The position numbers and the translations under genes are program-made. The notes under the pieces were generated by a model. That model saw only the letters and a list, made by a program, of their open reading frames with translations, was not told where the DNA came from and did no database searches. This document shows, one piece after another, positions 4,138 to 57,641 of a stretch of DNA of 64,000 nucleotides (positions are counted from its first letter, which is position 1; the number at the start of each line of letters is the position of its first letter). The stretch spans positions 225,737 to 289,736 of the forward strand of contig KL197730.1 of NCBI GenBank assembly GCA_000697665.1. The letters run 5' to 3'. The DNA comes from Jaapia argillacea MUCL 33604. Its lineage: Eukaryota > Basidiomycota > Agaricomycetes > Jaapiales > Jaapiaceae.

Positions 4138-6411
4138 TTATACAAACCAACCCTTCCCTCTCGAACGAACAAACAAGATCCTTGAGAGTAGCATCATGCA
4201 GCAACCCATGCTAATACAAACCTGAGCATTCGAAAATAGGGAGAAAATGGGTCAGAAATAGGCAGACAAAACTGAAGTAGAAGACGAAAGCAACGATAAC
4301 ACCCCGTAGTGCATGACAGAAGGGTTCGGAAAGATGGATGCAAGATGGAAGCAAAACTCACCCCACTAAATGTGATCCCTCTCCACCAAGAATACTCAGT
4401 ATTCGTTCCTAATAATGCACCCTCGATAGGCGTCCCGATCAACATCGCGAGACCGACGATCGTGAACGCAATACCCATCCGTACCCTGTACCAAGAAAAT
4501 TCACAGTCAGTCAACCATGATTCACTGACTTGACTCAGGTTATTGTAGACGCACCCTAGTTCACCCATATGCCGTGACATCATCACCAACAAGGAAGGGA
4601 TCAACGAAACATCTATCCCAATCCTAAAATCAGTCAAAGGTTGCAAAGGGAGAGTGAGACGACGCACACGCCCCACTGAAGAACCCAAAAACGCCACCGA
4701 CACCAATCAAACCTCCAACACTGCCAGCACCAAATATCGCGAACACCATAGTCGAAGAGATGAGCATGCAAGGTAGTATCATATTGTACACCCCGACACG
4801 GTCTGCTAAGAATGGGGGGACCAGTCGGCCGAGGATCGAGCCGCCATTCAAGATCGCTAGCTACGGGAGAGGAAGATGAGGTAAGAATGGACTGAGTTGG
4901 AAAACGGGCTTACTGAGTAGAAGGATAGGTTTTCATTGACGCCATGCTGTTCTGCGAACAATTGCATATAAAAAACTGACAGAATATTTATTGTCAATAA
5001 ATGATAATATGGGGAATGGACGACAGAACTCACAGGGAAAGAACAAGCCGATGTTGGTCAAGAACGCTCTGAAATTCAATCCATGCACGATCAGACAACA
5101 GATCGGACAAGACAATCAGTCACCTACCCGCAAATACTCGAAACATATGCCCAGTCCCTAATTATCCCTTTCAAGTCCACTGGCAAACCATTACTCCCGG
5201 CTGGACCACCACCTTTCGCCCCCATTCCCCTCCCACCCGCACTTCTCCCTCTTCCTTTCCCCACCCTCATGATGAGGTTCGCCACGACTAGTAAACCTGT
5301 CACACAAGCCGCGCTGACCTGAACGCCGAGAACGAAGCCGCCGTCCCCATGAGCGAAAAGTCTGTTGAGCATGATGGGGAAGACGATCCCGCCGACGCTT
5401 GCTCCTGTTACGACGATTCCTGTAGCTAGGGCTCGGCGATTTTTGAAGTGATGGGACACTATGGAGAGGGATGGGAGGAATAGAATGCCTTGGCCTAATC
5501 CCACTCCGAGTCCTTGTGCCAGGAAGACCTGTGAATTCGGAGATATGTGAGCAATGGGCGGTATTGATGGCGGTTGAAACCATGATCGGATCACGACGAT
5601 TTGCACGTACTTGGTAGTATTGATGTGGTTTGACAAGTGAATGCATGAACATCGAGAAGACATAGATTACGGATCCGATAGCGTTTGTATGGTGGCTAGG
5701 AGAAGATATCCGTTATTATCGCTGCCAGAGCCTGAGGATATCACGGCGCACAAGTAACCGGCGTCAAAGGCCCTGCCCACGAGGACACCAGGTGCATAGA
5801 GTAAGAAGAGTTGAACGCTGCCTATCCAGCTGTGGGTGAATTTACTCAGTGAACCTGCCACCCTATTTATCCGAGAAGCTCACCTGATTTCGGAGGCACT
5901 TTTGTATGACAGAAAATCCCTTGTGTAAAACGCTGGGGCGGCACTGTCAGTGCCACTGGCCCACGCAGCGCGCCCCGATAATAGACTTACCTTGGTACAC
6001 GCCAAAGGCAGAGACATGGCTACAAGACATGGTCAATTCAGGGGGACCGCCCAGCAGGGGAACTAATTACCCAAATGTGGAAAACTGGATCATCCAGCTA
6101 GACATGGGATCAGCGAATATGAAACAAACGACGAGTCAGGAAACTCACGCTCCAGCGATCGTCAACCAGGCTCTCCATCCACCATCAGGGGGATCGTTAA
6201 CGGCCGAGTGTGGGGTGGTCTCGACCTGGACGTCGTAACCACCGTTCTCACACTCTGCCAGGTGATCGGTCTTCTCCAGGATCTCAAAAGATTGAGTGGA
6301 GCCAACGACAGTGGAGGACAAGACTGCAGATACGTTTGTCGTCGAGCGATTATTATCGAAGGAAGGAGGCATGAGGGGATGGATGGGGGGAGGGCGAGAG
6401 GAAAGAAGCAT
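4138..6411 (-). CDS. Monocarboxylate-transporter-like MFS permease
   Basis: Starts at ATG 6411 with a hydrophilic N-terminus of about 70 residues, then the family signature DPPDGGWRAW at the start of TM1, which is diagnostic of MCT/MCH-type MFS proteins. Later exons give GVGLGQGILFLPSLSIVSHHF, RALATGIVVTGASVGGIVFP, NGGSILGRLVPPFLADRVG (the loop before TM8), and RMGIAFTIVGLAMLIGTPIEG near the C-terminus. The last exon appears to end ...FVRSRGKGWFV with TAA at 4138-4140. At least six introns are needed and no obvious break was seen. The substrate is unknown: fungal members include riboflavin and carboxylate carriers as well as orphans. Confidence 0.87.
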
Positions 6412-18980: not shown

Positions 18981-21634
18981 TCAGTAATTTCGTCGGCGTT
19001 TCAGCTCTCGCGAAAGTCGCAAGCACAACACAAACGCAACGGCGGCCGCGATGCCCCCCAAGCTACAAAGGTTTGTTTATAGAGATCATCGGAGTTCAGG
19101 GAACGCCACTCACCGGAATATGATGGCCACCGAATTAGGGCCGCCGGCCTGATCTACACGATCGCCATCCTCGTCTCTCAGGAATAGCAAGTGGTTCAGA
19201 GTAGTATTTGCAGGTGCCGCCAAAGTGACATTGTCGATGGACTGTGTCACCCCTGCATGGCGATGGTGAATAACAGACTTTGTTGGCTCGAAGATAGCGA
19301 ATATGATCGAGGAAAGCCCTGTCATCAGGAACTGTGGGATGACTATAAAGATATTGTGGATCCCCTATTCACCGCGTATGTCAGTCATTATACCAGAGGG
19401 GAAAGAGGAAGGCGAACGAGAATGACGCCCGCTTTTGCACTGAGATCGCCCCCTCCAACCTCCTTTGCGCCTTCAAGGTGCGTATCCTCTCGCACTCTCA
19501 ACTCCCCGCTCCCCCCTTCCATCGAAACCGACGACCGACCAGACATCCCATCCTTTCCCTCTTTCTCCTCATCCTCCTTCCCTTCCTCGACCAGCAAGAA
19601 CCTTGTTTCCTCCAAAGATCCGTCCCGACATGGAGAGTCTCCAAACCGTAGGTTGTTGGTGTCGCGAAGTAGGATAGATTCATCATCAAGATCAGAACCT
19701 TCGCTGAGGGGAGCTGCGTCCGAGCGAATAGCCTCACCGAGCTAATTTGAACAGGAATTAACGACGGGGGAAGAACGGTGCGTCAGTGATTCGGAATTAG
19801 GTGACGAGGAACAACCACTAAGCTATACGGTTGGCTTACCAGGGAGAAGGGCACCCAATGAGTGATAGCCATTGAGAACCCAGTCAAACTAATAAGGATT
19901 GTCGCGCCCGTCACGCTTGATGTGAAGCTAGAATTCAGTGTGCCGGATAAGCTTACCTCGGGACACGTACTAGTGAGCAGGGGAAACTTACAGGGTGGCG
20001 CCCATACAGCAAGAGAAGAGGAGATCCGAAACAGCCCACAATATAGCGAGGTGGACCTTGCAGGCCGGAGGGCTCTTGGCTTCGAACCACTTATTTCCAT
20101 TCCTCTCCTTCTCAGCTTCTTCGCCATAGGCAAATAAAGGTGCCAAGAAGGTCGTCACGAGACTCAATAGGGCGCTGTAAAGCATCGCTCTGGTCCCCAA
20201 TCTGGTAGCTTCAGCGTCCCAGCGCTCGATTGCGCTGTCGTCGGCGTCGGCAGAAAGAGGATTGGCTCGTTTGTACAGTTCACCGACGTAGACCGTTGCG
20301 TAGAAGAAAACGGGGAACCGTCCTAACACCGAGCTAAGGACTGTCAGTTTCGTAGTCCTACAGTTTGAATATTCACTCACAAAAACTGGATGAAACACTA
20401 CTCAGGTTGGGAGGCACGGGGGGAACATGTACCGTCATCAACAGGACAAGGAGGATATGGAAAGATGGACGCACAATCTGTCGAATGACCCTAGGGAGTT
20501 TGAACATGGTATCCCAAAATAACTTCAACTTGGCCACAGCACCCTTTTCGGCTTGGCTGGAACCATAACATTTTAATCGGTGCGACAAAAAAAAGACAAC
20601 AAACGACTCGTACGTCGTTGGTGCCACCAAAACCTTCTCCTTTACACAGTACGACATCGACAAATGGGTGATGATGAGAACGATGACGGTTAGAATTGAC
20701 AAAACTCCGAGCTCCGTCTTGCCCAGCATGGGGAAGATGGACGTCAGGTCAATGTTTCCGCTGCATGGTTTGAAGGATGAGATCGACTTCACGGTGAATG
20801 AAGGTTGACATACACAAAAAAACCGGTGATGCTTCCGATACCATGCATACGAGCAGCCCATGCATTCCCACTCGCTTGTTCAGAGGTTGGAAGGGTATCA
20901 ACAAGCAGAGCACGATCTACAGCTTGCACTAATGACACATTGACGGGATAAGCTCAGGACAAAGTCAGGAAGGACATCTGCGGACCTATGTTCACGGAAA
21001 AGTCGATGCAGTAAATTGACAATATGGCCAGCCAGATGGTAAGGATATCATTCTGAGACCTCCTCAGCATACATTATCGAATATACCATCAAAAGGGGAT
21101 TGACTTACAGTGGTAGTGTCTGGTAATGTGAATATCCCGGCGAATTGCCTCGTGAATCCCAGAAGGAGTAGTGCCAAGACACAAATAGCGACTCCCGAGA
21201 GCATGTACGGTCTCCGTCGACCAAACCTTGATTTTGAGTTATCGCTGAGGACACCTGGAGTGCACAAGCACCACGTCAGCGCGTGTCCGAAGTTATTATG
21301 AACAGGGAAACACACCGACTATAGGTTGGACAATTAGGCCAGAGAGGGGGCCGGCGATGAGTACAATTGCCATGAAGGACTTCTTCAGACCCAAGGATAG
21401 CAGATATGGTGACGCTTCACAGACTCCAGATCAGTATTCGGATGCCGAATATCACAAGTCAAGCGCACCATATGACATCTCAACAGACCATAATATCTGC
21501 ACGCCCAGAAAACCTATTGTCAGATTTGGCATTTGGAGCCATCTTGGACCGAGAATCTTCGAGGCTCCTCTCAGTTGCGACCCATCTTCCCGCTCCCCTG
21601 GCTTGGCTGCAGCGAGTGCTGAGAAGCCAGTCAT
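18981..21634 (-). CDS. Sucrose/alpha-glucoside-type transporter, copy B
   Basis: Same family and exon layout as copy A. Starts MTGFSALAAAKPGEREDG at 21634 and has VLSDNSKSRFGRRRPYML, NIDLTSIFPMLGKTELGVLS, RFPVFFYATVYVGELYKRAN and TGLSSIIFAIFEPTKSV. The terminal block CLRLSRELKRR is followed by three extra residues (RNY), because the usual TGA reads CGA here and the stop moves to 18981. Closest to copy C (shared 'ttggaccgagaatcttcgag' stretch in exon 1). No interrupting stop was found, but full intron-by-intron checking was not possible. The DNA transposon lies about 1.2 kb upstream of its start. Confidence 0.83.
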
Positions 21635-25437: not shown

Positions 25438-28093
25438 TCATCGGCGTTTCAGCTCCCGCGAAAGTCGCAAGCACAACACGAACGCGACAACGGCTGCGAT
25501 GCCTCCCAAGCTATAAAGCTTTGTTCATAGAGTTCATCAGAGTTCAGTGAACGCCACTCACCGGAAGATGATGGCAACCGAGTTAGGGCCGTCGGCTTGA
25601 TCGACCTGATCACTGTCTTCATCTCTCAGGGATAGTAAGTCGTTCAGAGTGGTGTTTGCAGATGCCGCCAAAGTGACATTGCCGATGGGCCGTGTATTCC
25701 CTGGACGGTGATGGTGAAGAACAGACTTTGTTGGCTCGAAGATAGCGAATATGATCGAGGAAAGCCCTGTCATCAGGAACTGTGGGATGACTATAAAGAT
25801 ATTGTGGATCCCCTATTCACCGCGTATGTCAATCATTATACCAGAGGGGAAAGAGGAAGGCGAACGAGAATGACGCCTGCTTTTGCACTGAGATCGCCTC
25901 CTCCAACCTCCTTCGCGCCTACAAGGTGTGCATCCTCTCGCACTCTCACCTCCCCGCTCCCTCCTTCCATCGAAACCGACGACCGACCAGACATCCCACC
26001 CTTTTCCTCTTTCTCCTCCTCCTCCTCCACCTTCCCTTCCCCGACCAGCAAGAGCCTTGTCTCCTCCAAAGACCCGTCCCGAAATGGAGTGTCTCCAAAT
26101 CGTCGATTGCTAGTGTCGCGAAGTAGGATAGATGCGTCATCGAGATCAGAACCTTCACTGAGGGTTGTGCCGGGGCGAATGGCCTCGCCGAGCTAGTTTG
26201 AAGGAAGTTAACGACGAGTAACGGGAGGGACGTGTCAGTGATTCGGAGTTAAACGGCAAATAAGAACCGGTAAGATGTGCGGTCGACTTACCAGGGAGAA
26301 GGGCACCCATTGACCGATAGCCCCTGAGAACCCAGTCAAACTAATAAGGATTGTCGCTCCCGTCACGCTTGATGTGAAGCTAAAATACAGTGTGTCGGAT
26401 AAGCTTAACTCGGGACACGTACTAGTGAGCAGGCACTTACAGGGTGGCACCCATACAGCATGAGAAGAGGAGATAAGAAACAGCCCACAACGTAGTAAGG
26501 TGGACCTTGCAGGCTGGAGGGCTCTTGGCTTCAAACCACTCATTTCCATTCCTCTCCTTCTCAGCTGCTTCGCCATAGGCAAACAAAGGTGCCAAGAAGG
26601 TCGTCACGAGACTCAATACCGCGCTGTAAAGCATCGCTCTGGTCCCCAATCTGGTGGCTTCAGCGTCCCAGCGCTCGATTGCGCTGTCGTCGGCGTCGGC
26701 AGAAAGTGGATTAGCTCGTTTGTACAGTTCACCGATGTAGACCGTTGTGTAGAATAAGATGGGGAACCATCCCATCACAGAGCTGAGGGCTGTCAGATTC
26801 GTGGTCCGATAGGTCGAAAATTCACTCACAAGAACTGGATGAAACACTGCTCGTGTTAGGAGGAGCGGGATGGATATATACCATCATCAATAGGACAAGG
26901 AGGACAGGGAAGGATGGACTCACAATCTGCCGAATGACCCTAGGGAGTTTGAACATGGTATCCCATAATAGCTTCAACTCGGCTACAACACCCTTTTCTG
27001 CTTGACTAGGGCCGAAACATTTGAGAATGAGCGAAAATAAAGTTGATAATCGACTCTCACGTCGTTGACGCCACCAAAACCTTCTCCTTCACACAGTACG
27101 ACATTGTCAAGTGGGTGATGGTCAGAAGGATGACGGTGAAAATTGACAAAACTCCAAGCTCTGTCTTGCCCAGCATGGGGAAGATGGACGTGAGGTCGAT
27201 GTTTCCACTACGTGGTTTGAAGAATGAGACCGACTACAAAGCAAGTGAAGGGTGACATACACGAAGAAACCAGCGACGCTTCCTATACCAACCATACGAG
27301 CAGCCCATGCATTTCCACTGGCTTGTTCAGAGGTTGGAAGGGTATCAACAAGCAGCGCACGATCTACAGCTTGCACTGAGGACACGTGGACAGAATAAGC
27401 TCTCGATAAAGTGAGGAAGGACAAGTGCGGACCTATGTTCACGGAAAAGTCGATGCAGTAAATTGATAATATGGCCAGCCAAATGGTGAGGATATCATTC
27501 TGAGATCTCGCCACCTCGTCAACACGCGATGTCGAATATACCATTGAACGGGATTAACTTACAGTGGTAGTTTCTGGTAACGTGAATATCCCGGCGAATT
27601 GCCTCGTAAATCCCAGAAGGAGGAGTGCAAAGACACAAAGAGCGACTCCTGAGAGCATGTACGGTCTCCGTCGACCAAACGTTGATTTCGAATTATCAGT
27701 GAGGACACCTGGAGTGTACGGGGGCCACGTCACCGTGTGTTCGGAGGTATTATGAACGAGAAAACACACCGACTATAGGCTGGACAATCAGGCCAGAGAG
27801 GGGACCAGCGAGGAATACGATTGCCATGAAGGACTTCTTCAACCCTAAGGATAGCAGATACGGTGACGCTTCACACAGACTCCAGGTCAGTATTCGGATG
27901 CTGAATAACATAAGTCGCTGAGCCCACCATATGACATCTCAACCGACCATAACACCTGCACGCCCAGAAAACCTATCGTCAGATTTGGCATTTGGAGCCA
28001 TCTTGGACCGAGAATCTTCGAGACGCCTCTCAGTTGCGACCCATCTTCCCGCTCCCCTTGCTCTGCCACGGCGAGTGCTGAGAAGCCAGTCAT
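25438..28093 (-). CDS. Sucrose/alpha-glucoside-type transporter, copy C
   Basis: Same family and layout as the other copies. MTGFSALAVAEQGEREDG starts at 28093. Unlike copies A and D it is open further upstream, to an in-frame ATG at 28129 (MDWEARIASHSL), so the start is ambiguous; homology favours 28093. Motifs: VLTDNSKSTFGRRRPYML (loop 2-3 signature with Thr in place of the Arg of the other copies), AVDRALLVDTLPTSEQASGN, WFPILFYTTVYIGELYKRAN, an acidic loop with EEEEKEEKGG, and TGLSSIIFAIFEPTKSV. Ends CLRLSRELKRR, TGA at 25438. Apparently intact. Confidence 0.84.
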
Positions 28094-29339: not shown

Positions 29340-31987
29340 TCATCGGCGTTTCAACTCTCGCGACAGTTGCAAACACAACACAAACGCAACAGCGGTCGCG
29401 AGGCCTCCAACGCTATAAAGGTTTGTTCATAGAGATCATCAGAGTTCAGGGAACACCACTCACCGGAAGATGATGGCCACCGAGTTAGGGCCGTCAGCTT
29501 CATCGACCTGATCACCGTCCTCATGTCTCAGAAATAGCAACTCGTTCAGAGTGGTATTTGCGGCTGCCGCCAAAGTGGCATTGCCGATGGGCCGTATACT
29601 CCCCGGATGGTGACCGTGAAGCGCAGACTTTGTTGGCTCGAAGATAGTAAAGATGATGGAGGAAAGCCCTGTGATGAGAAACTGTGGGATGACGATGAAG
29701 ATAGTGTGGATCGCCTATTCGCCATGTATGTCAGTCATGATACCAGAGGGGAAACAGTAACGCATACGAGAATGACGCCTGCTTTTGCACTGAGATCGCC
29801 CCCTCCGGCCTCCTTTGCTCCTGCAACATATGCATTCTCTCGCACTCTCACCTCCCCGTTCCCTCCTTCTATCGAAACCGATGACCGACTAGAAACGCCA
29901 CTCCCTTCCTCCTTCTCCTCCTCCAGCTCCTCCTTCTCTTCCCCAACCAGTAAGAACCTTCTCTCCTCCGAATATCGATCACCAAACGGAGAGTCTCCTG
30001 ACCTTCGGTTGCAAAGTAGAATAGATGCGTCATCAGAATCCAGACCTTCGCTGAGAGGAGACGAGTCGGAGCGAATAGCCTCGCCGAGCTAATTTGAAAC
30101 AGAAGTTATCAACGAGAAAGGGGAGAAACGTTGCGTCAGTGGTTCGGAATTAGGTCAAAAAAAAACGGTTAAGCTGCGAGGTCGGCATACCAGGGAGAAG
30201 GGCACCCATAGAGTGATAGCCCATGAGAAGCCAGTTAAAGTCATAAGGATCGTCGCTCCTGCCACACTTGATGTAAAGCTAAAATTCCGGGAGCCAGATA
30301 AGCTTGTCTCGGGGCACGTGCAAGTGAGAAGGGGACACTTACAGGGTGGCGCCCATACAACATGAAAAAAGGAGATGAGACGCAGCCCACAACGTAGCAG
30401 GGTGTACCTTGTAGATCTGAGGGTTCTTCACCTCAACCCATTGATTCCCATTCCTCTCCTTCTCGGCTGCTTCGTCATAGACAAACAAAGGTGCCAAGAA
30501 GTTTGTCGCCATAGTCAATACGGAGCCATAAAGCATCACTCTGGTCCCCAACCTGGTGGCTTCGGCATCCCAGCGTTGGATTGCACCGTTGTCGGCATCG
30601 GCAGGAAGGGGATTGGCTCGTTTGTACAGTTCGCCAATGTAGACCGTTGTGTAGAATAAGACCGGGAACCATCCTATCCACGCGCTAAAGGATGTCAGTC
30701 TCGTGGTCCTATAGGTCGAAGATTCACTCACAAAAGCTGGATGTAACACTAATCATGTTGGGAGGAGCGGAGTGAACGTATACCATCATCAGTAGAACAA
30801 GGAGCAAGGACAGCGGAAGTTGGACGCACAATCTGCCGAATGACCCTAGGGAGTGTGAACATGGTATCCCATAATAACCTCAACTCAGCTATAACACCCT
30901 TTTCTGCTTGACTGGAACCGAGATATTTAAAATAGAGCTACAAAATGACAAGAAATGACTCGTACGTCGTTGACGCCACCAGAACCTTCTCCTTCACACA
31001 GTACGACATTGTCAAGTGGGGGATGATGAGAAGGGTGATAGTGATGATTGACAAGACTTCAAGCTGTGTCTTGCCCAGCATGGGAAAGATGGCCGTCAGG
31101 TCGATGTTTCCGCTACGTGGTTTGAAGAATGAGATCGACTACACAGCAAGTGAAAGCTGACATACACGAAAAAAGCTGCGACGCTTCCGATACCGAGCAT
31201 ACGAGCAATCCATGCGTTGCCATTCGCTTGTTCAGAGGTTGGAAGGGTATCAACAAGCAGAGCACGATCTACAGCTTGCACTAAGGACACATGGGCAAGA
31301 TAAGCTCACGATGAAGTCAGGAAGGACATGTGCGGACCTATGTTCACGGAAAAGTCAACGCAGTAAATTGACAATACGGCCAACCAGATGGTGAGGGTAT
31401 CATTCTGAGACTTCCTCAGCATGTAATGTCAAATGTACCATTGAACGGGATTGGCTTACAGCAGTAGTTCCTGGCAATGTGAATATCCCAGCGAATTGCC
31501 TAGTAAATCCGAGAAGAAACAACCCAAAGACAGACAGAGCGACCCCCAAGAGCATGTACGGTCTCCGTCGACCAAACCGAGACTTTGAGTTATCACTAAG
31601 GACACCTGGAGTGCACGAGCGCCACATCAACGCGTGTTCGGAGATATTGTGATTGGGGAAACACACCAATTATAGGCTGGACAATCAGGCCAGAGAGTGG
31701 ACCAGCGAGGAACACGATTGCCATGAGGGACTTCTTCAGCCCCAAGGATAGCAGATATGGCGACGCTTCATACAGACTCCAGGTCAGTATTCGAATGCGA
31801 AATGTCATTAGTCAAGCGCACCATATGCCATCTCAATCGACCATAACACCTGCACGCCCAAAAAACCTATCGTCAGATTTGGTATTTGGAGCCATCTTGG
31901 ACCCAAAATCTTCGAGACGCCTGTCAGTTGCGACCCATCCTCCCGCTCCCCTTCCTCAGCCACGGCTAGTGCTGAGAAGCCAGTCAT
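29340..31987 (-). CDS. Sucrose/alpha-glucoside-type transporter, copy D
   Basis: Same family and layout. Starts MTGFSALAVAEEGEREDG at 31987, with no upstream in-frame ATG before a stop. Exon 1 ends LWSIEMAY and joins ASPYLLSLGLKKSLMAIVFL. Then come VLSDNSKSRFGRRRPYML, AVDRALLVDTLPTSEQANGN, WFPVLFYTTVYIGELYKRAN and VYDEAAEKERNGNQWVE; the loop is acidic (KEELEEEKEGSG). The terminus is CLQLSRELKRR, TGA at 29340. It resembles copy A most: exon 1 shares a run of DNA variants ('ttggacccaaaatcttcgag', 'cctgtcagttgcga') absent from B and C. Apparently intact. Confidence 0.85.
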
Positions 31988-39033: not shown

Positions 39034-41323
39034 ATGATTCGTGCTAGGGGACATAGAGCTCTCGTACGCCAGATTCGTGCTTTACACTCCACTGCTCGAT
39101 GCCGACGGGAACTGTTCGACCCAAGTACCGTTGAGAGGGCTTCCGACGAAGTGGATGTCTGCATTGTCGGTGGAGGGCCTGCAGGTCTCAGTGCCGCCAT
39201 TCGTCTGAAACAGCTGGAGCAAGAAAAGGGGAATGAAGTCCGGGTGGTGGTACTTGAAAAGGGGTCAGAGATAGGTATGTTCAAAATTTCACATACTGGG
39301 TCCTGTATCTCTGTGATTGTACGACCTCCGACGGAGGGTATGTCTCGCCGCAGTAGCGATGTATTCCACGACATCGGAAACCTCTCGCGAAACCGGTGAA
39401 ATAGGACTTTGGTCCAGAGATATTGGTTGGATACCACCTCAGTGGAAGTCCCTGATATGTAGTTGTCTAGCGAACTATCGAAACATCGACGCTACCAGTC
39501 CCATGAAATTACCTTCTTGAAAATATTTGCCCTCGCTATTCGACACGTCGCTCACCGGGTCCTTGTTTCGCAGGGTCTCATATCCTATCCGGTGCTGTGG
39601 TCGAACCCCGTGCTCTCAACGAGCTCCTCCCATCGTGGAAGGACCATCCCGACAACCCCCTCACCCAACCCGCCCTCCACGACCACATGCGATTTCTCAC
39701 TCCCAACAAATCATTCTGGATGCCTCACCCTCCACAAATGTCAAACAAAGGCAACTACATCACCTCTCTTTCCCGCTTTACCGCGTGGCTCGGTTCCATC
39801 GCAGAAGAAATGGGTGTTGAGGTCTACCCTGGTTTCGCAGGTGCCGGTCTCGTCTATGGCGAGGACGGTAAATCCGTTCGTGGTGTAACGACAAACGAAG
39901 TTGGACTGGATAGGCAAGGGAGGATGAAAGATGCTTTCGAGCCTGGTATGGAATTCCGTGCGAAGGTTACTTTGGTCGCCGAGGGTGCCCATGGGAGTTT
40001 GACCAAGCAGCTAACGAAGAAGTTTGATTTGAGGAAGGATTGTGATCCTCAGACGTACGGTATAGGGTTGAAGGAGGTCTGGAGGGTTGATCCGAGTCAG
40101 TATCGACCGGGTGAGGTGATGCATCTCATGGGTTACCCCTTGGATAACAAGACGTACGGTGGAGCTTTCGTCTACCATATGGCGGATGGCCTTGTTACCA
40201 TGGGACTGGTTATTGGATTGGATTACCCAAATCCTTATCTCAGTCCATATAGCGAATTACAGGTTCGCTTTCATCACATGATCTGGTGGTAATGCTAGCT
40301 AACTATCGTGCCTGCAGCGAATGAAACACCATCCTTACTTCCAAACTCTCCTCAGTGGCGACGCTACCCGTATCGCCTATGGTGCCCGAACACTGAATGA
40401 AGGCGGTCTTCAATCCATTCCCAAACTATCTTTCCCAGGAGGTGCCCTCATCGGATGCTCAGCAGGTTTCGTCAATGTTCCAAAAATCAAAGGCACCCAT
40501 AACGCCATGAAAACTGGTATGCTAGCCGCCGAAGCTGCGTATGACGCTGTCGCCAAGACATCACACGAGTCTGAAGAGGCGGCAGACATGACCAAGTACG
40601 AAGAAACCTTCAAGAACAGTTGGGTTTATGAGGAGCTCAAGGAGGTTCGGAACCTTCGACCGAGCTTTAACACTCCACTGGGAGTATTTGGTGGTGTCAT
40701 GTATTCAGGCCTGGATACCTACATCCTCAAGGGTCGTGTACCCTGGACTTTCCGCAACAAGCAAAAAGTCACAGACGCCTCGCATACCAAACGCGCGTCG
40801 GAAGTACAACCTATCAAATACCCTCCTTTCCAACCTCCTTTATCTACCGATCTGTTGACCTCGTTGGCGTTGACTGGGACGAATCATGCCGAAGATCAAC
40901 CTATCCATTTGAGAGTGACAAAGGACGGCAAGGAGGATCTGGAGGTTAGGAGGAAGCATGTGGAGAGGAACGTTGGAGAGTTTGCGGGGTTGCTTGGGAG
41001 GGCTTGCCCGGCGGGTGTTTATGAGTATGTTGAGGATGAGGAGGGTGCGAAGACTGCTGGATGGGGCGGCAAGACTTTGGTTATCAACTCTCAGGTTCGT
41101 TCGGAATGCTTCTGAATGATTCGCCTGGTCTCATGGATTGTTTGGTTCTGATAGAACTGCATCCATTGCAAGTTGTGCGATATCAAGGTGCCGACCCAAG
41201 ATATCAACTGGACTGTCCCTGAAGGTGGAGGAGGCCCTAAATACAGTAAGTGCTCCTCTTTCTCTCTCCCTGCCCCATTCCTTGTCACTGATGGACGAAC
41301 CTCTCCTCTCAGCCATCACATAG
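39034..41323 (+). CDS. Electron transfer flavoprotein-ubiquinone oxidoreductase
   Basis: ETF-QO passes electrons from ETF to ubiquinone at the inner mitochondrial membrane, linking fatty-acid and amino-acid oxidation to respiration. Exons: 39034-39274, 39574-40262, 40318-41094, 41155-41245 and 41313-41323. The ATG at 39034 gives an Arg-rich presequence ([20 protein letters not shown]). Then the FAD dinucleotide motif [88 protein letters not shown] (membrane/quinone loop), and the [4Fe-4S] ligands in CPAGVYEY and [11 protein letters not shown]. It ends GGGGPKYTIT. Every expected block is present. The first intron is 299 nt against 55-67 nt for the others. Confidence 0.97.
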
Positions 41324-43237: not shown

Positions 43238-45598
43238 TCAGCTTCTCAGAGCGACAGGAAGAGGCGGAGAAGGAACTGAAGGAACAACAGGCTTCTTCCT
43301 CCGTCCCAACTGACCACTCGAAGTCAGTTTCCTCAGTAATCGCGTGACGGTCCCTGGTTTCTTTAATCCCGTCCTCTGACCATCCACTGGAGGGTTGGCA
43401 CTAACCACTCCCACCTCCGATACCGGTTCGTCCTGTGGGGTAGAACCAGAAACCGAGGGGAACGCGAGATCCGAAGTGGCCATATGTGTTTGTACCTCGG
43501 GGGTGGGTGTATGCGTCTGTACCTCGGAGGTAGGTATATGCACTTGCGCAGTGGAGGTGGGTATATGCGCTTGGACCTCGGTCGCACGTACACGCGCCTC
43601 CACCTCGGAAGTGGGTATATGCGCCTGCACGTTGGAGGTGGGTATATGCGTTTGGTCGTGAGGATCAGGCAAACACGCAAGCGCCTCCACCTCCTCACCA
43701 GGGCCCCACACCCTAATCTCCACTCCTCCCCTCTCTTCCTCCTTCTCCTCCTCTTCATCAGCCTCCTCAATCGAAACGATCGAACTAGGTCTCGACATCG
43801 ACAAACTCAACATCGAACTCCTCCTCGAACCCGAAGGGCTAGGGCTCGGAGTCGTCCACCCCGAATGTGAAGGCGAAAGAGATGAAGAAGAAGACATCGA
43901 TATTAGACTGTCTATGCCTCTCGTAGAGGAGGAAGCTTCGTTGTATGCGTAGGTATATGGAGGGGAAGGAGGTTCGAGAGGGAGGCTTGTTGAGGAAGAC
44001 GAAGAACGCATGGGATGATGAGGGGTGTAGACCTGGGGTGGTTGAGTGAGAGGTGGAGTGGTTGGAGGTTTGGCTGGCGTGATATGAACGACGGGGACGG
44101 TAGGTTGGGCAGAGTGTCGAGAGAGTTTCTTCCTAACCCAACCAACTATCTTTCCCTTACCCACACCACCTTCCCCTGTGGTACCAGCATCAACAGGAGC
44201 GGGAGTGGTAACCTCCAACTCAACCCTCATCCCAACCTCCAAACTCTTACCCACTGCACGACCCTCATCTCTAAAACTTATACTCCTAGTCCTCCCAGAA
44301 ATCGCGAGCGTATCACCTGACGACCTCGCTCGATTCGTTGAAGTCGAAGCTCTAGGCGTACTCGGTCCAGCAACGTTACTAGCACCATCATTCTCCCCGT
44401 TGGCACCAGCGATGAGACTACTAGTCCGCGACCTCGCAGGTCCGTTCATACTACTAACACTAGCCCTCCTCTTGATATTCTCTCCAACCCTCGAGTTGGC
44501 AGATACGGGCATGACCACACCTTGCGCTGCAAGTGATAAGCGTGAGAATTTGGGCGTTTGGGCATAGGTGTTTTGAAGGAGCCAATTATCGGCCGCTGCG
44601 GCTTTCTTGGCATCAAGGGATGTTTGAGAAGAGGGATTTCGTGTGAGAGGTGCGGGAGGTAGTGGTTTGTGTAATGATCCCGAGGAGTTTTGACGGACCC
44701 AAGAAGGGATAGGTGGGACTGCTGGGATTTCTTCGATTGGGTCTTCCTCCTTCTCTTTCCCGTTACGAGAAGTGTGGGAGAAGGTAAGTGAGAACCGCTT
44801 TGTGAGCGATTTTCGTTTGGAGAGGGAAGATTTTGACGAAGAGCGGGATAACGATGTTGAGGAAGAGGATTGGGAAGGTAAGGTTGAGGTAGAGGTTGGG
44901 ATAGAAGAGGAACTTGATGATGAATGGTCGGAGGAGGTAGGTGAGGTATGGGCATGGGTGTGTGTCGAACTTGAAGCCGCACACGAAGCGTCGAAGTATT
45001 CTGCCACGTTCGCGCTACTCGCAGGTCTCCTCTTGAAAGGAACCTTCGAAGTGGAATCAGAAGCGTAGGCGGAATGTAAAGAGCCAGCCGACGCTGGGCT
45101 TCTCAAAGTCGCCAGATCCGGTGTGGAAGCTATACGGGATGGCTTGTATCGTTTCTTGTCGTCTGTGTTGTCGGAAGCTGATACGGCTGGTCCTGCCAGA
45201 GGGGAGGAACGGAGAGGGCGTGCGCCAGTGGGACGGGTGGGAACCATCATTGTGTGTCGGCGAGAGGAGGGCGTTAAGGACATTGGTGGACGAGGGGAGG
45301 GCGATAAGGAACGAATGTATGGTTGAGGGGAATGATATGTGGGTTGCGTAGTGTGTGCTGGTTGCAAAGGAGTGAGTGAGCTGCTACTGCTGCTTGTGTA
45401 GTCTATCATGCTCTTGGGACGAGTCTAGAAATAGAGTGTTTAGCGCTTCATCGACACATACAAGCAAGGCACAATGCAACAACAAGAAAAGGAATAATGA
45501 AACGAGGGAATAAGCAGAGGTAACCAGGTACTCACGAAACGAGAGTCATTGTAGTTGGAGTCCAAGTGCGGATTAAGCGTTCGAGCGCTCAACGCCAT
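43238..45598 (-). CDS. Ser/Pro-rich protein of unknown function
   Basis: Exon 1 (45536-45598, MALSARTLNPHLDSNYNDSRF) joins exon 2 (43238-45424, TRPKSMIDYTSSSS) across a 111-nt intron; about 749 residues. Largely low complexity, with Ser/Thr/Pro tracts and many basic patches (KRKSLTKRFSLTFS, KGKIVGWVRKKLSRHS, VTRLLRKLTSSGQLGRRKKP), and no TM segment or enzyme motif. Residues around 585-645 are an imperfect 11-residue repeat of the type HIPTSEVQA. Such proteins are common in Agaricomycetes and often phosphorylated; a regulatory or cytoskeletal role would be a guess. I do not recognise a named domain. Confidence 0.75.
43480..43660. repeat. Coding minisatellite, 33-bp period
   Basis: About five to six imperfect 33-bp units inside exon 2 of the Ser/Pro-rich gene, visible on the plus strand as recurring 'ggtgggtatatgcgcctg'. 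The period is a multiple of three, so the frame is kept. Units encode variants of HIPTSEVQA on the minus strand. Confidence 0.85.
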
Positions 45599-51560: not shown

Positions 51561-51820
51561 GGTGTGGTAGGCTTGGTTGATACGGACAATCTGGGACAAT
51601 GTTGGTGCGCTTTGAACACTTGTCGTGTATTGGATGGACAGTGTTATGTTTACGATCTAATATTCACCATTCCAACTTTCCTTTTTTTTCCCGTCGGATG
51701 TCAATGGGTTGCGACTCTGAGGATGGCGGCCAGAGCGGCACTACCCCCACCAAGTTGACATGGTCGTAGATGTAGATATGCGATTGCGACTCGTTGCAAT
51801 ATATCTCATACCCACAACGG

Positions 51821-51842
51821 ACACCCGCCAATTGGCGGGTGT
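51821..51842. repeat. Perfect 22-bp palindrome opening the U6-like array
   Basis: The sequence is its own reverse complement, centred on CCAATTGG between 51831 and 51832. The related CCGCCAGTTGGCGGGTG recurs near 52128, before the third unit, so the palindrome is part of the repeat. Confidence 0.9.
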
Positions 51843-52620
51843 CCTCCACGAGATATTATTCACGACTGTGTGTGTGACATGCGTAAAAATTGGGATGCTA
51901 CAGAGAAGCGACCCCATTGACCATCATAGCAATTTTTACATATGGCGGCTGTCCTGGACGAGACATTGTTCATGGCTATGTGTGTGACATGCGGGCAATT
52001 TGGGACGCTACAGAGATGCGACCCATCGACCATCGTAGCAATTTTTACGATGCAAAACCGTAGCATGCTGTGTCACGAACACCGAATGGTTGGACACGAA
52101 TTGACGGATGCTGAAATTGGGCGGACCCCCGCCAGTTGGCGGGTGAAAACTGGCGGGTGACCTGGACGAGATATCATTCTTGACTCTCGTGTGCGACATG
52201 CGTAAAAATTGGGACCCTACAGAGATGTGAACCATTGACCATGCTTACGATTTTTATGAGACAAGACCGTCGTATGTTGCATCCCGAAAGTAGGATACTG
52301 AAGGACTGGACCCTAGTTGACGGACGCTAAAATTGGGTCGATACAGGGTGCCGTTTCTTGTCCTAGCACGCCAATTACCGGCCATCGATCGAACTAAGTG
52401 GAAAGCAGGTGAGCGACGTCCAAGCGTGATACTGGAACCCGTGAAAGAGCATGGGAACTCACCTGAGCCATGTTTCGCAAACTTGGGATGATGCTGAGTT
52501 CGTGTGGCAACGCACCAATCATCCGAGTCTCAACCTTCAAATACCCGCTAGTCGAACGAAGCACGTGACTTCAATCGACATACGCAAAAATTGGGCTGAT
52601 ACAGAGTGGCCATTTTTTGA
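51841..52620 (+). repeat. Array of degenerate U6 snRNA-like units
   Basis: At least five segments share a core like nucleotides 15-50 of U6: TGACATGCGTAAAAATTGGG followed by ATGCTACAGAGAAG at 51875-51908, and variants at about 51985-52017, 52194-52225, 52320-52349 and 52575-52611. The real U6 gene at 53768 has TGACATACGTAAAAATTGGA then ACGATACAGAGAAG. The first three units are about 100-110 bp long and also share 'ctggacgaga' and 'tattcacgactgtg'-like lead-ins and 'accattgaccat' tails that U6 lacks. They keep the ACAGAGA box but lack the AGC triad and the internal stem-loop, so they cannot act as U6. Confidence 0.72.
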
Positions 52621-53735
52621 GTAGCGCGCCATTTTTCCGCCATCGCAAAGACTCCTTGGGAATGCGGGTGAATGATGTCGAAGTGTCCGAAATCTGAGTC
52701 ATCATTGGATCTCACCTGAGCCACTTGCCAGAAACTTGGGATGCTAGAGACCAGTTGATACAAGAATACTTACACCCAGTTGCTTTGACGTTGAATTGGA
52801 AGGTAAATGAGTCGCATCTAAAATGACCCATCTCTTGCCGCCGTGCAAAAATTAGCTGCTAAATTCGCCTTGATCGCAAAGTCAGCCAAGTAGTATGCCG
52901 AGGATGTGCGTATGGGAGACTCATTGATCACGGACATGACATTAGCATAGGAAGCGGGGGAAACGAGGGTTGACGAAGTTAGCAATCAAGACAACGGTGG
53001 TTTCAAGGCGCATCTTGTAGGAATCGGGATCAGGCGGCGATGAGCGCGCTCATCAGCACGAAATACAAACGTAGAGCACCTACTTGCGGGGAACCCAAGA
53101 GAAGAGGAATGCAATCGGATTGTCTCAAGCAGGAGGCGAAGTTAGGTCATCGAAGAGGTTGTTAGACTTCCAGCTCGTCCACATGGATTCGGCCAGAATC
53201 CAGATTGACCACGTCATGGCCACATTCCACGGCGACATCGTACCCCGAAGTCTTGGAAATGTGTACACGAGAAGGTAACACAGATAGTAGAAACATGGAG
53301 GTACATAACGTAGCCCTCCAAGATACGACTGGAGATTCGTCGAGAGATTCGAGGATGATTGTTCACATCGGAGCTGGTGACACCGCCTTATCCGTGATGG
53401 GATTTAGACGATAAAAAAATTTGTTTGGGGAGTTGGCAGGCAGGGATTTCGGAACTTTGTGGAGGATGCACATACAGAGCGGACGTTGGCAGAGAAAGTC
53501 GGGACGTGGACCTGCGACCTTGTCCTTCGGTTGACGGAAAAAGCTAGACAAGACGATACAACCCATCCATTGTGGAATACAGTAGAATCCAGCCTTTCAA
53601 AGGGTAGAATCAGGGCATAACAAAGATTCTAGAGATGGTAGACACCAAAGCAAGCGATGACTGCGAACAAGTCCACGAAACGCCGGAAAGTGCCGGATGG
53701 CCTCCCCCCGCGACTCCAGCAATACTCGCTCGTTC
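52621..53735. other. Spacer between the U6-like array and the U6 gene
   Basis: No gene recognised. Short frames only. One more weak U6-like trace ('cttgggatgctagaga') near 52735. Confidence 0.4.
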
Positions 53736-53756
53736 GTTCGAGTCCCCGCTATATTT
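53736..53756 (+). promoter_or_regulatory. Candidate U6 promoter elements
   Basis: A TATATTT box at 53750-53756 lies about 18 bp before the U6 5' end (slightly closer than the usual 25-30 bp). Just upstream, GTTCGAGTCC at 53736-53745 fits a Pol III B-box (GTTCGANTCC). In yeasts the U6 B-box lies downstream or in an intron, so an upstream copy may be chance. Confidence 0.45.
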
Positions 53757-53767
53757 CCTACTACTTA

Positions 53768-53792
53768 TGTCCCCTTCGGGGTGACATACGTA

Positions 53793-53823
<31 letters not shown>

Positions 53824-53893
53824 GGCCCCTGCACAAGGATGACACGCTTCTCCAGAGTGGAAGACCTACGGGTCTCAATATTTATGCATTTTT
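53768..53893 (+). ncRNA. U6 spliceosomal snRNA
   Basis: U6 forms part of the spliceosome active site. Visible in order: a 5' stem-loop (TGTCCCCTTCGGGGTGACA), AAAAATTGGAACGAT, the invariant ACAGAGAAGATTAGCATGG with the ACAGAGA box (53807-53813) that pairs with the 5' splice site and the AGC catalytic triad, and the internal stem-loop CCCCTGCACAAGGATGACACGC. The 3' part has a hairpin (GACC TACG GGTC), and T5 at 53889-53893 is the likely Pol III end. There is no intron in the catalytic core. 5' and 3' ends are estimated from U6 of other eukaryotes. Confidence 0.93.
53889..53893 (+). terminator. Pol III T-run terminator of U6
   Basis: First run of five T after the U6 core (gcaTTTTTc). A shorter TATTT occurs just before it. 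Confidence 0.6.
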
Positions 53894-54098: not shown

Positions 54099-57000
54099 TT
54101 AGTCTGCATTGTCTGCCTCCATCCCGCTTTGCAGAAGATCATTGAGTTCAGCAAGTTTGCCTGCATCAAGAAGCTCGCAGATGGCAGCCAAAGTTAGTTT
54201 ACCCTCTGTAGCATAGTCATCTGGGTTCGCAATCCAATCTGATGTGAAATCAAGCCGTTCCCATTTGTACAGGAACTTAAGAATCTGAAGGACTTCAAGA
54301 AGGGCCAGATTGAGTTTGTTTCGCCACACAGTTGTTGTCTCCTTTGCAGACAAGAATATTCGCTTGCAAGGAACAGCTAATGCCTGAACAGGCAGGACAT
54401 CAAGGGCCACTTGATACAGAAGTGGGTAGACAAATACTTTGCTCTGCGAGAAGTGATCAGTAATTCAAGATTGAAATGTTCACGGAATTTTGCTTACCTC
54501 CCAAAATTTCACAAGTGAAATGTCTTGCTCTGCTCCTTGCAAGGTTCCATGTTCCAGGTAATGCCTGAGCTCCTCGTCTGTGACTCTCAGGTCACTCACC
54601 AACTCCTCCACTCCCTGTACTGCTTTTCTTCGTCTGTCATTTCATGTGGCATGGACACAGGAGAAGGGTCACAAGCAGGGGTACTCAAACAACTGGATGG
54701 AGCAGTGGTGACAGAGGAGGAGTGGCGCTGAACATGGAGGAGGCCATCCAAATGATCTGATCCATGGGCTTGGGCATGTGAGGCATAATCAACAACATTA
54801 AAAATTGGCACTGTATTTTTGCAACTTAGAAGGGCCAGAGCAGTTAATGACATCCTCTTTTCACACTGATAGGATAGCATCTATTTCAGATGAGATCTGA
54901 GTCATTAACATACCAGGACCTCAGAACAAGAGATAATTACTCACTGCCTCTCATATCCATTCCTTGGCTTGAACTGCAACTTCTTCAAAACCCATTCCAT
55001 CTTGTAACTGGGGTTGATCACTGATGTATAACAGTCAGATGAAGTGAGAACCAGAGCTGTTAGACAAAGTACTTACACATTGCAAGGGCATTAATTCAAG
55101 AACAGCGATCTTTTGCCATGTATTCCTCAAGCTTTGCAATACCCACCCCAATATAATGTGCCAACTCAGGAATCAATTTTTGAAACTGCCTCCAGGTGAC
55201 AATCAACTGTTCATATACTGGCAGTGCTTGAGATGCTGTTGATGAGTGATTGCCAGATAAAAGTTCTTGAGTAGTGTGGGGAACTTTGAGAACCTGATGT
55301 ATGTCTTGGAGGACACCATGAGTAGTATCAGAGATACAATGTTCAACAAGCTCTTCACGCCATGGATGTGCACAAAAGAGATCAATTCCCCAGAGAAACT
55401 CATCAGAGGTTAAATACCGAACCAGAAGTGAGCGAGACTAACCAGCAAAAGATAAAGGTACCTTCCCATCATCTGAAAAGTTGAAGACCATCATGTGTTG
55501 ACATCATGAAGGAGCTGTAAGGGCTGGATGAAGTTGACTTTGTCAGGCCATGTTTTCTCAGAAGTCTTGTTACCCTTGATAATGACATCTCTTAGGTCAT
55601 GTTGACATTGACTAGACTTGCATAGATGATAGCACTCCGACTGCCATGTGAATGCCTCCAATTGGGTCCATTGATAGTGCATCAGCATATTCCTGAATCT
55701 TGGCACAGCATACAGGATCGCTGTTCATTTCCAAGAGATGGAGAACTGGGTCAATTGGGTTTGTTTTAAGCTCTTCAACTTGAAGAACATGCTTTACAGC
55801 GATGTTCACCACGTGAGGGAAACATCTGACAATAGATGTAATCAGTTGCAAACAAAAGGACAAAAGAAGGGTGTTGACTTGCCTGATACAGTTGCCATCA
55901 CAATTGAAAGGAATGTTTTCTACCCAAAAGAGCTCTTCAAGCCTTGCCACCATGGCATTGCAATTTGAAGCATTGTCCATTGTGATGTGACCCATCTTGA
56001 ATGTCAAGGAACTTGTTATCCAAGGAAAACCAGTGTAAAATGTGATTCATACCTTATGCAGTATCTGTTAAGATTGTTACTTCAACAAAGTATACGATGA
56101 AAGACTTGATACTTCTCTGATGTTATCTAGGCTACAGCCCCAGAAGTAGAATGATGAGAGGATGAGAAACTATCAGAGGTTTCCAGATGAACAATCAGAC
56201 AGAGATCAAGTTGGGACAATGCGAATAAAGATAACGATCTATATTGACAAAGTGAACAAGATGGGGAATACTAGTGAATACAGGGAAGTATTTATACTAA
56301 AGTGAAGCACAGTCCATAGTAAGCACAGTCTGTAGTCTGTAGTCAAGATGAATAAGAATGAGTCAAAGTGAGTCAGAAAGATAGGGGTCCGTAGTGAGGG
56401 GTCAGGAGTCTGTAGTTGATGGTCTGGATCTGTGAGTCAGGGACATAGGGGTCTGTAGTCCATGGTCTGGATCATACTGAAAGGTAGGATGTCGATGTAG
56501 TGTGTAGGTTGGAATGATGAAGGTTGAGTGGGGATGAGTGACAATGCACTAGAGGTCGGATGTGCAGGAGTGAGGATATATTGTAGGGATGTCGAAGGGA
56601 TGTGTACCTGTCCCTTGTGTTCATGAGGAATATGATTGTAGTGCTTGATAATCCCATATATGGGAGGATCAGATATCCATGAGGATTGTTGAATAACAAG
56701 AAAAATGAAAATAGGCATAGCACAGTGTGATTCTTAACAGTATCCCATGTGTCCTGAGAATCTCAAAGAAGACCTTGGCCAAGTGCTTACCACTGTTCTC
56801 ACCCCTGATTTCACAAAAAGCAATAAGGTTGGAGATAATTTGGAGGTTCTCATCCTTAAAGCAAAATGGTGTGTCGCACCCCCAAAAGCATCAAGATTGC
56901 AGTTAGTCCACAAATCAAAAGTATAACAGTGACGGCCAGGCGAATGCTTTGATTTCTCCATCATTGCATAATGGTCCTTCTGATACTGCTCAAAAATCTT

Positions 57001-57641
57001 CATCGTGAGTTGAGTGCAGTGGGGTATTGTGCTGTTATTAAAGTTGTCAAGATTTTGGCCCAAGTACAGAAGTAAGTTGGGGAATTCAGGACATTCAGCA
57101 ACATTGATAGACTTGTAAGAAGGGTTAACATCACGATGGGAAGACAGAAGATCATTTACACATACCTGATCATCTGCCACGACCCACTGAATCAAACATG
57201 TAAGAAAGCCTTCTTGTGTGAAGGGCTCACATTCTGTCACAGGCTTCACCATTGCCCCTGCCCCACCACCTGGCCGAAGACCCCTCAAGATGTGTAACGA
57301 GGTTATATGTATTGAGATGTGACTTTGTAAGATGGGTGTGTAGGGTTGAGGTCATTCCATTACAAACTTTCCAAACCTTCCACTCCCTGAGACCAATGAA
57401 GTACAAGTTAGAAACTGAAGATCAAAACAAGAGAGTCCACATACTTGCACAACTTGCACCCAACATAGGGTGACTTTGGTTGACTTTTCAATATGGGCTC
57501 CTCCTTTGGTGAAGAGCTCTCTGAGTCATCACAACATGGTTCTACATCACTATTGAGAGCTTGCATGAAGTGCCATACATCAGTGGTGTGGGGTACTTGG
57601 GGTGCATAAGTTCTGAGTGAGGAGTAGTTGTTTGTCTTCAA
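54099..57641 (-). mobile_element. hAT-family DNA transposon, transposase remnant
   Basis: Minus-strand exons read an N-terminal zinc-finger-like region (TTDVWHFMQALNSD, then PKSPYVGCKLC), FPNLLLYLGQNLDNF, an RNase H-fold part (HCYTFDLWTNCNLDAFGG; MGHITMDNASNCNAMVARL; PLQLLHDVNT) and the C-terminal dimerisation domain (VLPVQALAVPCKRIFLSAKE, then LALLEVLQILKFLYKWERLD). This order is typical of hAT transposases. The copy is dead: reading frames are broken at several places, and a solo LTR (56066-56739) interrupts the RNase H region. CpG is scarce, suggesting methylation-driven decay. Terminal inverted repeats and target duplication were looked for and not found with confidence, so element edges are unknown beyond the coding part. 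Confidence 0.85.
56066..56739. mobile_element. Solo LTR of an LTR retrotransposon
   Basis: A 674-bp segment with the terminal pattern TGTTAAGA ... TCTTAACA, flanked by a 5-bp direct repeat GTATC (56061-56065 and 56740-56744). It lies inside the hAT transposase sequence, so it is younger than that element. No internal retrotransposon region remains, as expected after recombination between two LTRs. The family cannot be named from an LTR alone. Confidence 0.87.

Follow-up and report, generated by a model that had tools for sequence, protein, structure and literature searches.

The stretch of Jaapia argillacea DNA analysed here, 64,000 nucleotides in length (the window; C22:225737-289736, in a genome of 43.7 Mb and 95 contigs), raises the question of why a series of partial likenesses of the U6 snRNA should stand just upstream of an intact U6 gene. 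A preliminary description drawn from the letters alone had reported five or more U6-like cores 1.2 kb 5' of a real U6 gene on the same strand, and this account holds: five cores span 51875-52609, followed by a weak sixth, and the nearby gene is complete. The first three units are not, however, regularly placed at 100-110 bp as had been described, the start-to-start spacings of the five cores being 110, 209, 124 and 258; likewise the strong match of unit 1 stands, with a count of 30 rather than 29 identical bases. The features concerned are as follows, with U6 positions given as nt:

51875..51908, forward strand: core A1 (unit 1), 30/34 identical to U6 nt 14-47
51985..52018, forward strand: core A2 (unit 2), 26/34 identical to U6 nt 14-47
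52194..52227, forward strand: core A3 (unit 3), 28/34 identical to U6 nt 14-47
52318..52351, forward strand: core B1 (unit 4), 24/34 identical to U6 nt 14-47, reading ACAGGG; absent at C67
52576..52609, forward strand: core B2 (unit 5), 27/34 identical to U6 nt 14-47
52721..52754, forward strand: weak sixth core-like stretch, 20/34, which taken alone is within chance
53685..53768, forward strand: U6 upstream region, common to several other U6 loci
53769..53885, forward strand: complete U6 snRNA gene (RF00026, 88.4 bits, E 3.1e-21)

Just 5' of the gene, at 53736-53747, lies the sequence GTTCGAGTCCCC, which resembles a tRNA B box; it is kept at the three loci bearing the block described below and is not kept at C16.

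Chance was rejected as the source of the likeness between cores and U6 on the evidence of simulated windows, a genome-wide pattern count and a model derived from the units themselves. Of 50 simulated windows of 64 kb, 49 gave a top 35-mer match to U6 of 20-23 and the remaining one a match of 26, so that the comparison with shuffled sequence proposed in the preliminary description comes out in favour of units 1, 3 and 5, all of which exceed every control; unit 2 (26) only equals the top control and unit 4 (24) falls below it, and these two are convincing only because of their clustering and common flanks. A core pattern allowing up to three mismatches occurs at 16 places in the genome, against none for the reversed control, and 15 of these are U6 genes or the three array-bearing blocks at C22, C52 and C67; the remaining one is C2:1086357, on a contig with no U6 among the matches listed by the U6 family search. 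Furthermore, a sequence model built from 13 units with U6 left out retrieves U6 from 186 kb of sequence (E 1.9e-8). The Rfam U6 model, also suggested earlier as a check, detects the gene itself but places the five units that it lists at just 15.1-17.8 bits, short of the gathering cut-off of 44, and since a non-array place on C14 scores 16.4 bits, Rfam alone cannot separate the units from chance. No other Rfam family came near significance in the block, and a phage collection searched with 51825-52760 gave no match.

We then examined the setting of the cores, which make up the left portion of a longer, transposon-like block that stands some 90-150 bp 5' of U6:

51769 to between 53620 and about 53683, forward strand: transposon-like block of about 1.85 kb, with a well-defined left end
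53621..53627, forward strand: CAAAGAT, possible right-hand copy of a target duplication of 7 bp
51819..51844, no strand: perfect 26-bp palindrome containing ACCCGCCAATTGGCGGGT, ahead of unit A1
52122..52145, no strand: second, imperfect palindrome (C22:277863, 2 mismatches)

From 51769 to the end of U6 the window is homologous to C52 (L028 5730 on) and C67 (L029 5915 on), each of which runs into a U6 gene, that of C52 being exactly the window's and that of C67 differing by 1 base. The three full copies have diverged, with 75% of the 1470 ungapped columns between 52120 and U6 identical in all three, a level which suggests that movement was not recent. At C16, by contrast, an intact U6 gene is found without the block, some 40 bp occupying the place of 1.8 kb: left-flank homology there (81 bp, 85-86%) ends at L028 5729 and L029 5914, and U6-proximal homology (about 85 bp, 77-80%) resumes at L028 7564 and L029 7666. 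The interrupted U6 copies of C7 and C19 are likewise preceded by the left flank and are without the block, while the window copy has no U6 left flank, of the kind seen at C52, C67 and C16, to the left of its block. One and the same left boundary emerges from three comparisons, namely C52 and C67 with C16, the window with C52 and C67, and a recurrence of the block's left end at C4 (38 bp, 82%), where no gene was recognised; a left-end pattern, drawn with C4 in view, occurs at 4 places in the genome and its reversed control at 0. Based on the U6 loci of C16, C7 and C19 that are without the block, together with this common boundary, we read the block as an insertion, which these alignments support well; deletion of the block at the other U6 loci appears less likely. 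The candidate duplication, whose left copies at C52 and C67 read CAAGGAT, C16 itself reading CAAAGAT, disappears under an alternative alignment. Terminal inverted repeats were not found in the window and C52 copies, where the first and last 40, 100 and 200 bp score like shuffled sequence (49 to 199 of 200 shuffles), and in the C67 copy the score was raised at 100 bp (11/200 shuffles) and 200 bp (31/200) and not at 40 bp (199/200), the right ends used for C52 and C67 in this comparison having overrun the candidate end by 7 and 9 bases. The block is non-coding, with no frame longer than 92 aa from stop to stop.

A widespread genome repeat was also considered and rejected, DNA searches matching the block at three loci, a lower bound; one additional match, a short one at C7, corresponds to the U6 upstream region. 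The preliminary description had held that membership of the units in a larger, unrelated genome-wide repeat whose consensus had no U6 similarity would overturn its account; a larger repeat indeed exists, but all three of its full copies end in U6, and the account is not overturned. Among the matches listed, nine U6 genes exceed the Rfam cut-off, and the block stands 5' of three of them (C22, C52 and C67). Its retention upstream of three complete genes might indicate a U6 regulatory region, an upstream enhancer or boundary whose cores bind a putative factor that also binds inside U6. This is very improbable, as the other six genes (C16, two on C7, two on C19, and C43) manage without the block and the core recurs on C2 away from any listed U6.

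Thirteen units from the three loci could be aligned, leaving aside one gapped B unit at C67 and stretches matching only 19-20 of 34. They fall into two types, A (3 in the window, 2 at C52, 2 at C67) and B (2, 3 and 1, respectively). Identity of the 13 units to U6 is 78.8% over nt 14-46, against 23.1% over the preceding 30 nt and 35.5% over the following 26 nt. Flanks are clearly alike within a type (mean local scores of 42.5 and 46.1 for A-A, 26.9 and 29.3 for B-B), whereas A-B flanks score at the shuffled level (11.6 vs 11.6; 11.4 vs 11.9). Judged from these comparisons, A and B are two unrelated repeat types, with the core alone common to both and to U6; the earlier characterization of the array as repeats that have flanks of their own around a U6-like core, as opposed to simple gene duplicates, is upheld. 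All 13 cores carry G where U6 nt 33 is A (A33G), which suggests that one ancestral core, already differing from U6, was spread. TACAG is unaltered in all 13 aligned units, the omitted gapped C67 unit (L029 ~6523) reading TACGCAG, and TACAGAG occurs 5 times in the window copy, 5 times at C52 and 3 times at C67, always on the forward strand, against 0.2-0.3 in shuffles; one occurrence each in the window and C52 copies falls outside the cores.

These observations bear on the proposal, raised in the preliminary description, that the array consists of decayed tandem U6 genes. Nearness and shared strand favour it, and like U6 pseudogenes the array is U6-derived sequence close to a true gene; unlike them, it keeps nt 14-46 only, in two unrelated repeat contexts and inside an insertion. 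The core edges are sharp near nt 14 and 45, and no U6 promoter, 5' stem-loop or 3' half was found in any of the three arrays (57 to 197 of 200 shuffles score equally high), which confirms the absence of the latter two. As C16 moreover carries U6 and its flanks with no array, such decay is a most improbable origin and the suggestion falls. The likeness of the cores to U6 is real, and reflects neither chance nor decayed tandem genes; the cores are a component of the block, as opposed to remnants of entire U6 genes. Of a second origin suggested earlier, a Pol III retroelement with captured U6 sequence, the retroelement part found no support, while the notion of an element carrying U6 sequence comes near the reading we develop below.

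Elsewhere in the window, broken frames on the minus strand (54099-57351) begin about 200 bp past U6; the one piece searched gave no Pfam match, and we take the frames to resemble a decayed hAT-type transposase. An 81% copy of 56066-56756 lies on C14 (L037). Three ORFs of 161-162 aa that resemble one another and share their direction (19257-19745, 25711-26196 and 29607-30092) represent a local gene family, and a 27/54-bp tandem repeat at 43482-43651 falls within a 723-aa frame on the minus strand. No tRNA without an intron was found in the window, and a tRNA-SeC with a 411-base intron at 40166 was judged implausible.

The array might alternatively act as RNA, its transcribed units presenting UACAGAG loops as putative decoys or substrates of U6-binding proteins such as a METTL16-type m6A methyltransferase. 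Under the third origin suggested earlier, the units may be a putative source of small RNAs mimicking the strand that binds the 5' splice site. Three of the seven A units fold with UACAGAGAU in the loop, in the short stem with that loop 92% of cells are paired, slid controls giving 33-64%, and TTTTT, a possible Pol III stop, follows six of the seven. According to PMC7927073, the MAT2A hairpins recognised by METTL16 carry UACAGAGAA and, like the array, form several UACAGAG-bearing hairpin-like units in series. The array departs from them in that UACAGAGAA is exact in just one of 13 units (A1) and its stem is without covariation: in the long stem 0 pairs are changed on both sides, and in the short stem 1 pair is, with 132/500 shuffles as good. 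We regard an RNA mimic as improbable.

The palindrome ahead of unit A1 provided a further handle on the block. Its 16-bp centre occurs at 6 places in 43.7 Mb; when as many as three mismatches are allowed, ACCCGCCAATTGGCGGGT (18 bp) is found 32 times and its reversed control 5 times. The 22 places with at most two mismatches form nine clusters, on C7, C19, C22, C52, C67, C2, C35, C41 and C4, those on C22, C52 and C67 being the blocks themselves; on C2 the palindrome and the solitary core lie 377 bp apart. Both on C7 and on C19, U6 copies are split at one nucleotide, after ACAGAGAAG (nt 47/48), by palindrome-bearing inserts in which no U6-like cores were found; by DNA search such U6-internal inserts occur at two loci, a lower bound. 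We presume that nt 47/48 is near the position of mRNA-type introns in fungal U6 genes; an intron of that kind was nonetheless rejected as the identity of the inserts, the usual 3' AG being missing at their ends when inspected by eye. The C7 insert (C7:602626-619139; L034 3627-3673, L035 7060-7140) cuts U6 with about 16.4 kb, palindrome repeats coming first, and has nested inside it a KDZ transposase element with inverted ends, one piece of which matches PF18758 at E 2.6e-45. At C19:24437-25111 (L036 5438-6112) the interruption of U6 falls at the identical nucleotide and consists of 548 bp of palindrome repeats. A decayed U6 on C43 (L033, minus strand near 5089) bears an extra TG where the C7 and C19 copies are interrupted, a candidate excision footprint or variant target.

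Comparable arrangements involve what appear to be pieces of tRNA genes. On C35 (L060 425-885), the first 36 nt and a later 22 nt equal C4:401104-401000 at 100%, with a gap of 394 nt against 47, so that the pieces stand about 347 bp further apart than at the matching C4 place, with a palindrome between them; for the first 34 nt there are four additional matching places (97%). We take the first piece to be the 5' half of a tRNA-Ile(AAU), in which case the insert would sit where introns usually do. Of the artificial joins of the C35 pieces, 78 were called as tRNA by ARAGORN, and no tRNA-Ile was among the 15/78 examined. On C41 (L059 755-1660) we read by eye what is presumably a tRNA 3' half beside palindromes; the Rfam match there is a sub-threshold tRNA-like mascRNA (20.2 bits vs 42.5), a complete tRNA lies some 640 bp off, and a genome search for similar copies of the C41 insert gave none. 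By a post hoc tally that includes putative tRNA calls, 8 of the 9 palindrome clusters are associated with pieces of small-RNA genes or with a U6-like core.

Taken together, we tentatively favour, at somewhat short of even confidence, the explanation of the block as a mobile element, old and non-autonomous, which imitates its target gene through its repeats. Under this proposal it would be an old non-autonomous DNA transposon, its putative transposase supplied in trans or since lost. The repeated cores would be putative binding sites copied from the corresponding stretch of U6 and still resembling it, and the putative transposase would recognise the core and the matching stretch in the U6 gene alike; the likeness might then draw insertions to U6 genes, which as a multicopy gene would tolerate them. 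Palindrome-sharing, core-less sequences in U6 and tRNA genes may be sister families with other targets. The core, a module retained in both repeat types and corresponding to a single delimited portion of U6, looks like a site at which element and target would be bound alike. Counting for the element are the presence/absence relation with C16, the three homologous copies and the recurring left boundary; the sharp core edges, the sharing of the core alone between A and B, the spread of one ancestral core marked by A33G, and the excess of TACAGAG; and the palindromes in the split U6 copies and beside tRNA pieces, with the proximity of core and palindrome on C2. Against it count the single direction of all the cores, which are not inverted at two ends as in Dada-U6, the ambiguity of the target duplication, and the small number of full copies, only three, all diverged, with the window copy devoid of the U6 left flank. 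Moreover, the blocks lie beside U6 and not inside it, and the inserts within U6 are core-less, which makes the link from core to target indirect.

The strongest rival holds that some repeat or transposon acquired a U6 piece of about 32 nt on a single occasion and amplified it along with tandem repeats of its own, the core being idle and the block spreading with U6 by segmental duplication. Descent from a single core, as A33G indicates, agrees with such a passenger, as does the joint copying of block and U6 at three loci; indeed, duplication of one block-plus-U6 locus could yield the three copies with no repeated targeting, which weighs against a targeting element. An idle core sits less easily with the A and B repeats, whose cores match at 19-27 of 34 despite flanks without any likeness, with the intact TACAG of the aligned units (the gapped C67 unit being omitted), or with the recurrence of the core on C2. 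Core conservation leaves the choice undecided: core A3 is identical across the three loci in 33/35 ungapped columns, against 75% from 52120 to U6, whereas three-way conservation of core B2 (0.79) is near the block's 0.75, and in a blind scan 276/1000 shuffles equal the best window. This non-significant result, and a B2 kept no better than the block, speak against the element and, as to the scan, for the passenger, which we consider possible though rather unlikely.

Laccaria bicolor is a basidiomycete. Entries from this fungus are included among the families of Dada, a superfamily of DNA transposons (PMC3706591, PMC8869645). As described in PMC3706591, Dada-U6 carries U6's own CAGAGAAGA in sub-terminal repeats, has no terminal inverted repeats and generates duplications of 6-7 bp; the copied motif was proposed to take part in target recognition, its role as a guide to the target being speculation by those authors, and one-sided Dada flanks were reported and explained as one-ended transposition (section 8). 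Dada-U6 resembles the present elements in its association with U6 and tRNA genes (PMC3706591, PMC8869645), and the block in being without terminal inverted repeats, in having repeats that copy U6 around CAGAGA and in showing one-sided non-target flanks. It differs in inserting at U6 nt 65-70, the block being placed 5' of the gene and the inserts within U6 occurring at nt 47/48, and in copying a 9-bp motif inverted at two ends, where the block repeats about 32 bp one way. CAGAGAAG occurs once in the window copy and 0 times in the C52 and C67 copies. Because target site and copied-motif orientation depart from those of Dada-U6, we do not assign the block to Dada; it appears Dada-U6-like in logic, with a putative transposase. 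In literature other than subscription papers and preprints, no report of elements of this kind in fungi was among the papers listed on Dada in fungi, on inserts in fungal U6 genes and on palindromes in small-RNA genes.

More broadly, it is possible, if doubtful, that target-mimicking mobile elements of fungi colonise Pol III genes, with one family, which would use its tandem copies of U6 nt 14-46 as recognition sites, settling just upstream of U6, and palindrome-sharing sisters inside U6 at nt 47/48 and in tRNA genes near the intron position. If this is true, target mimicry at small-RNA genes would be extended to a fungus, and so long, repeated and sharply bounded a copy of U6 would make motif-guided targeting directly testable by binding and deletion.
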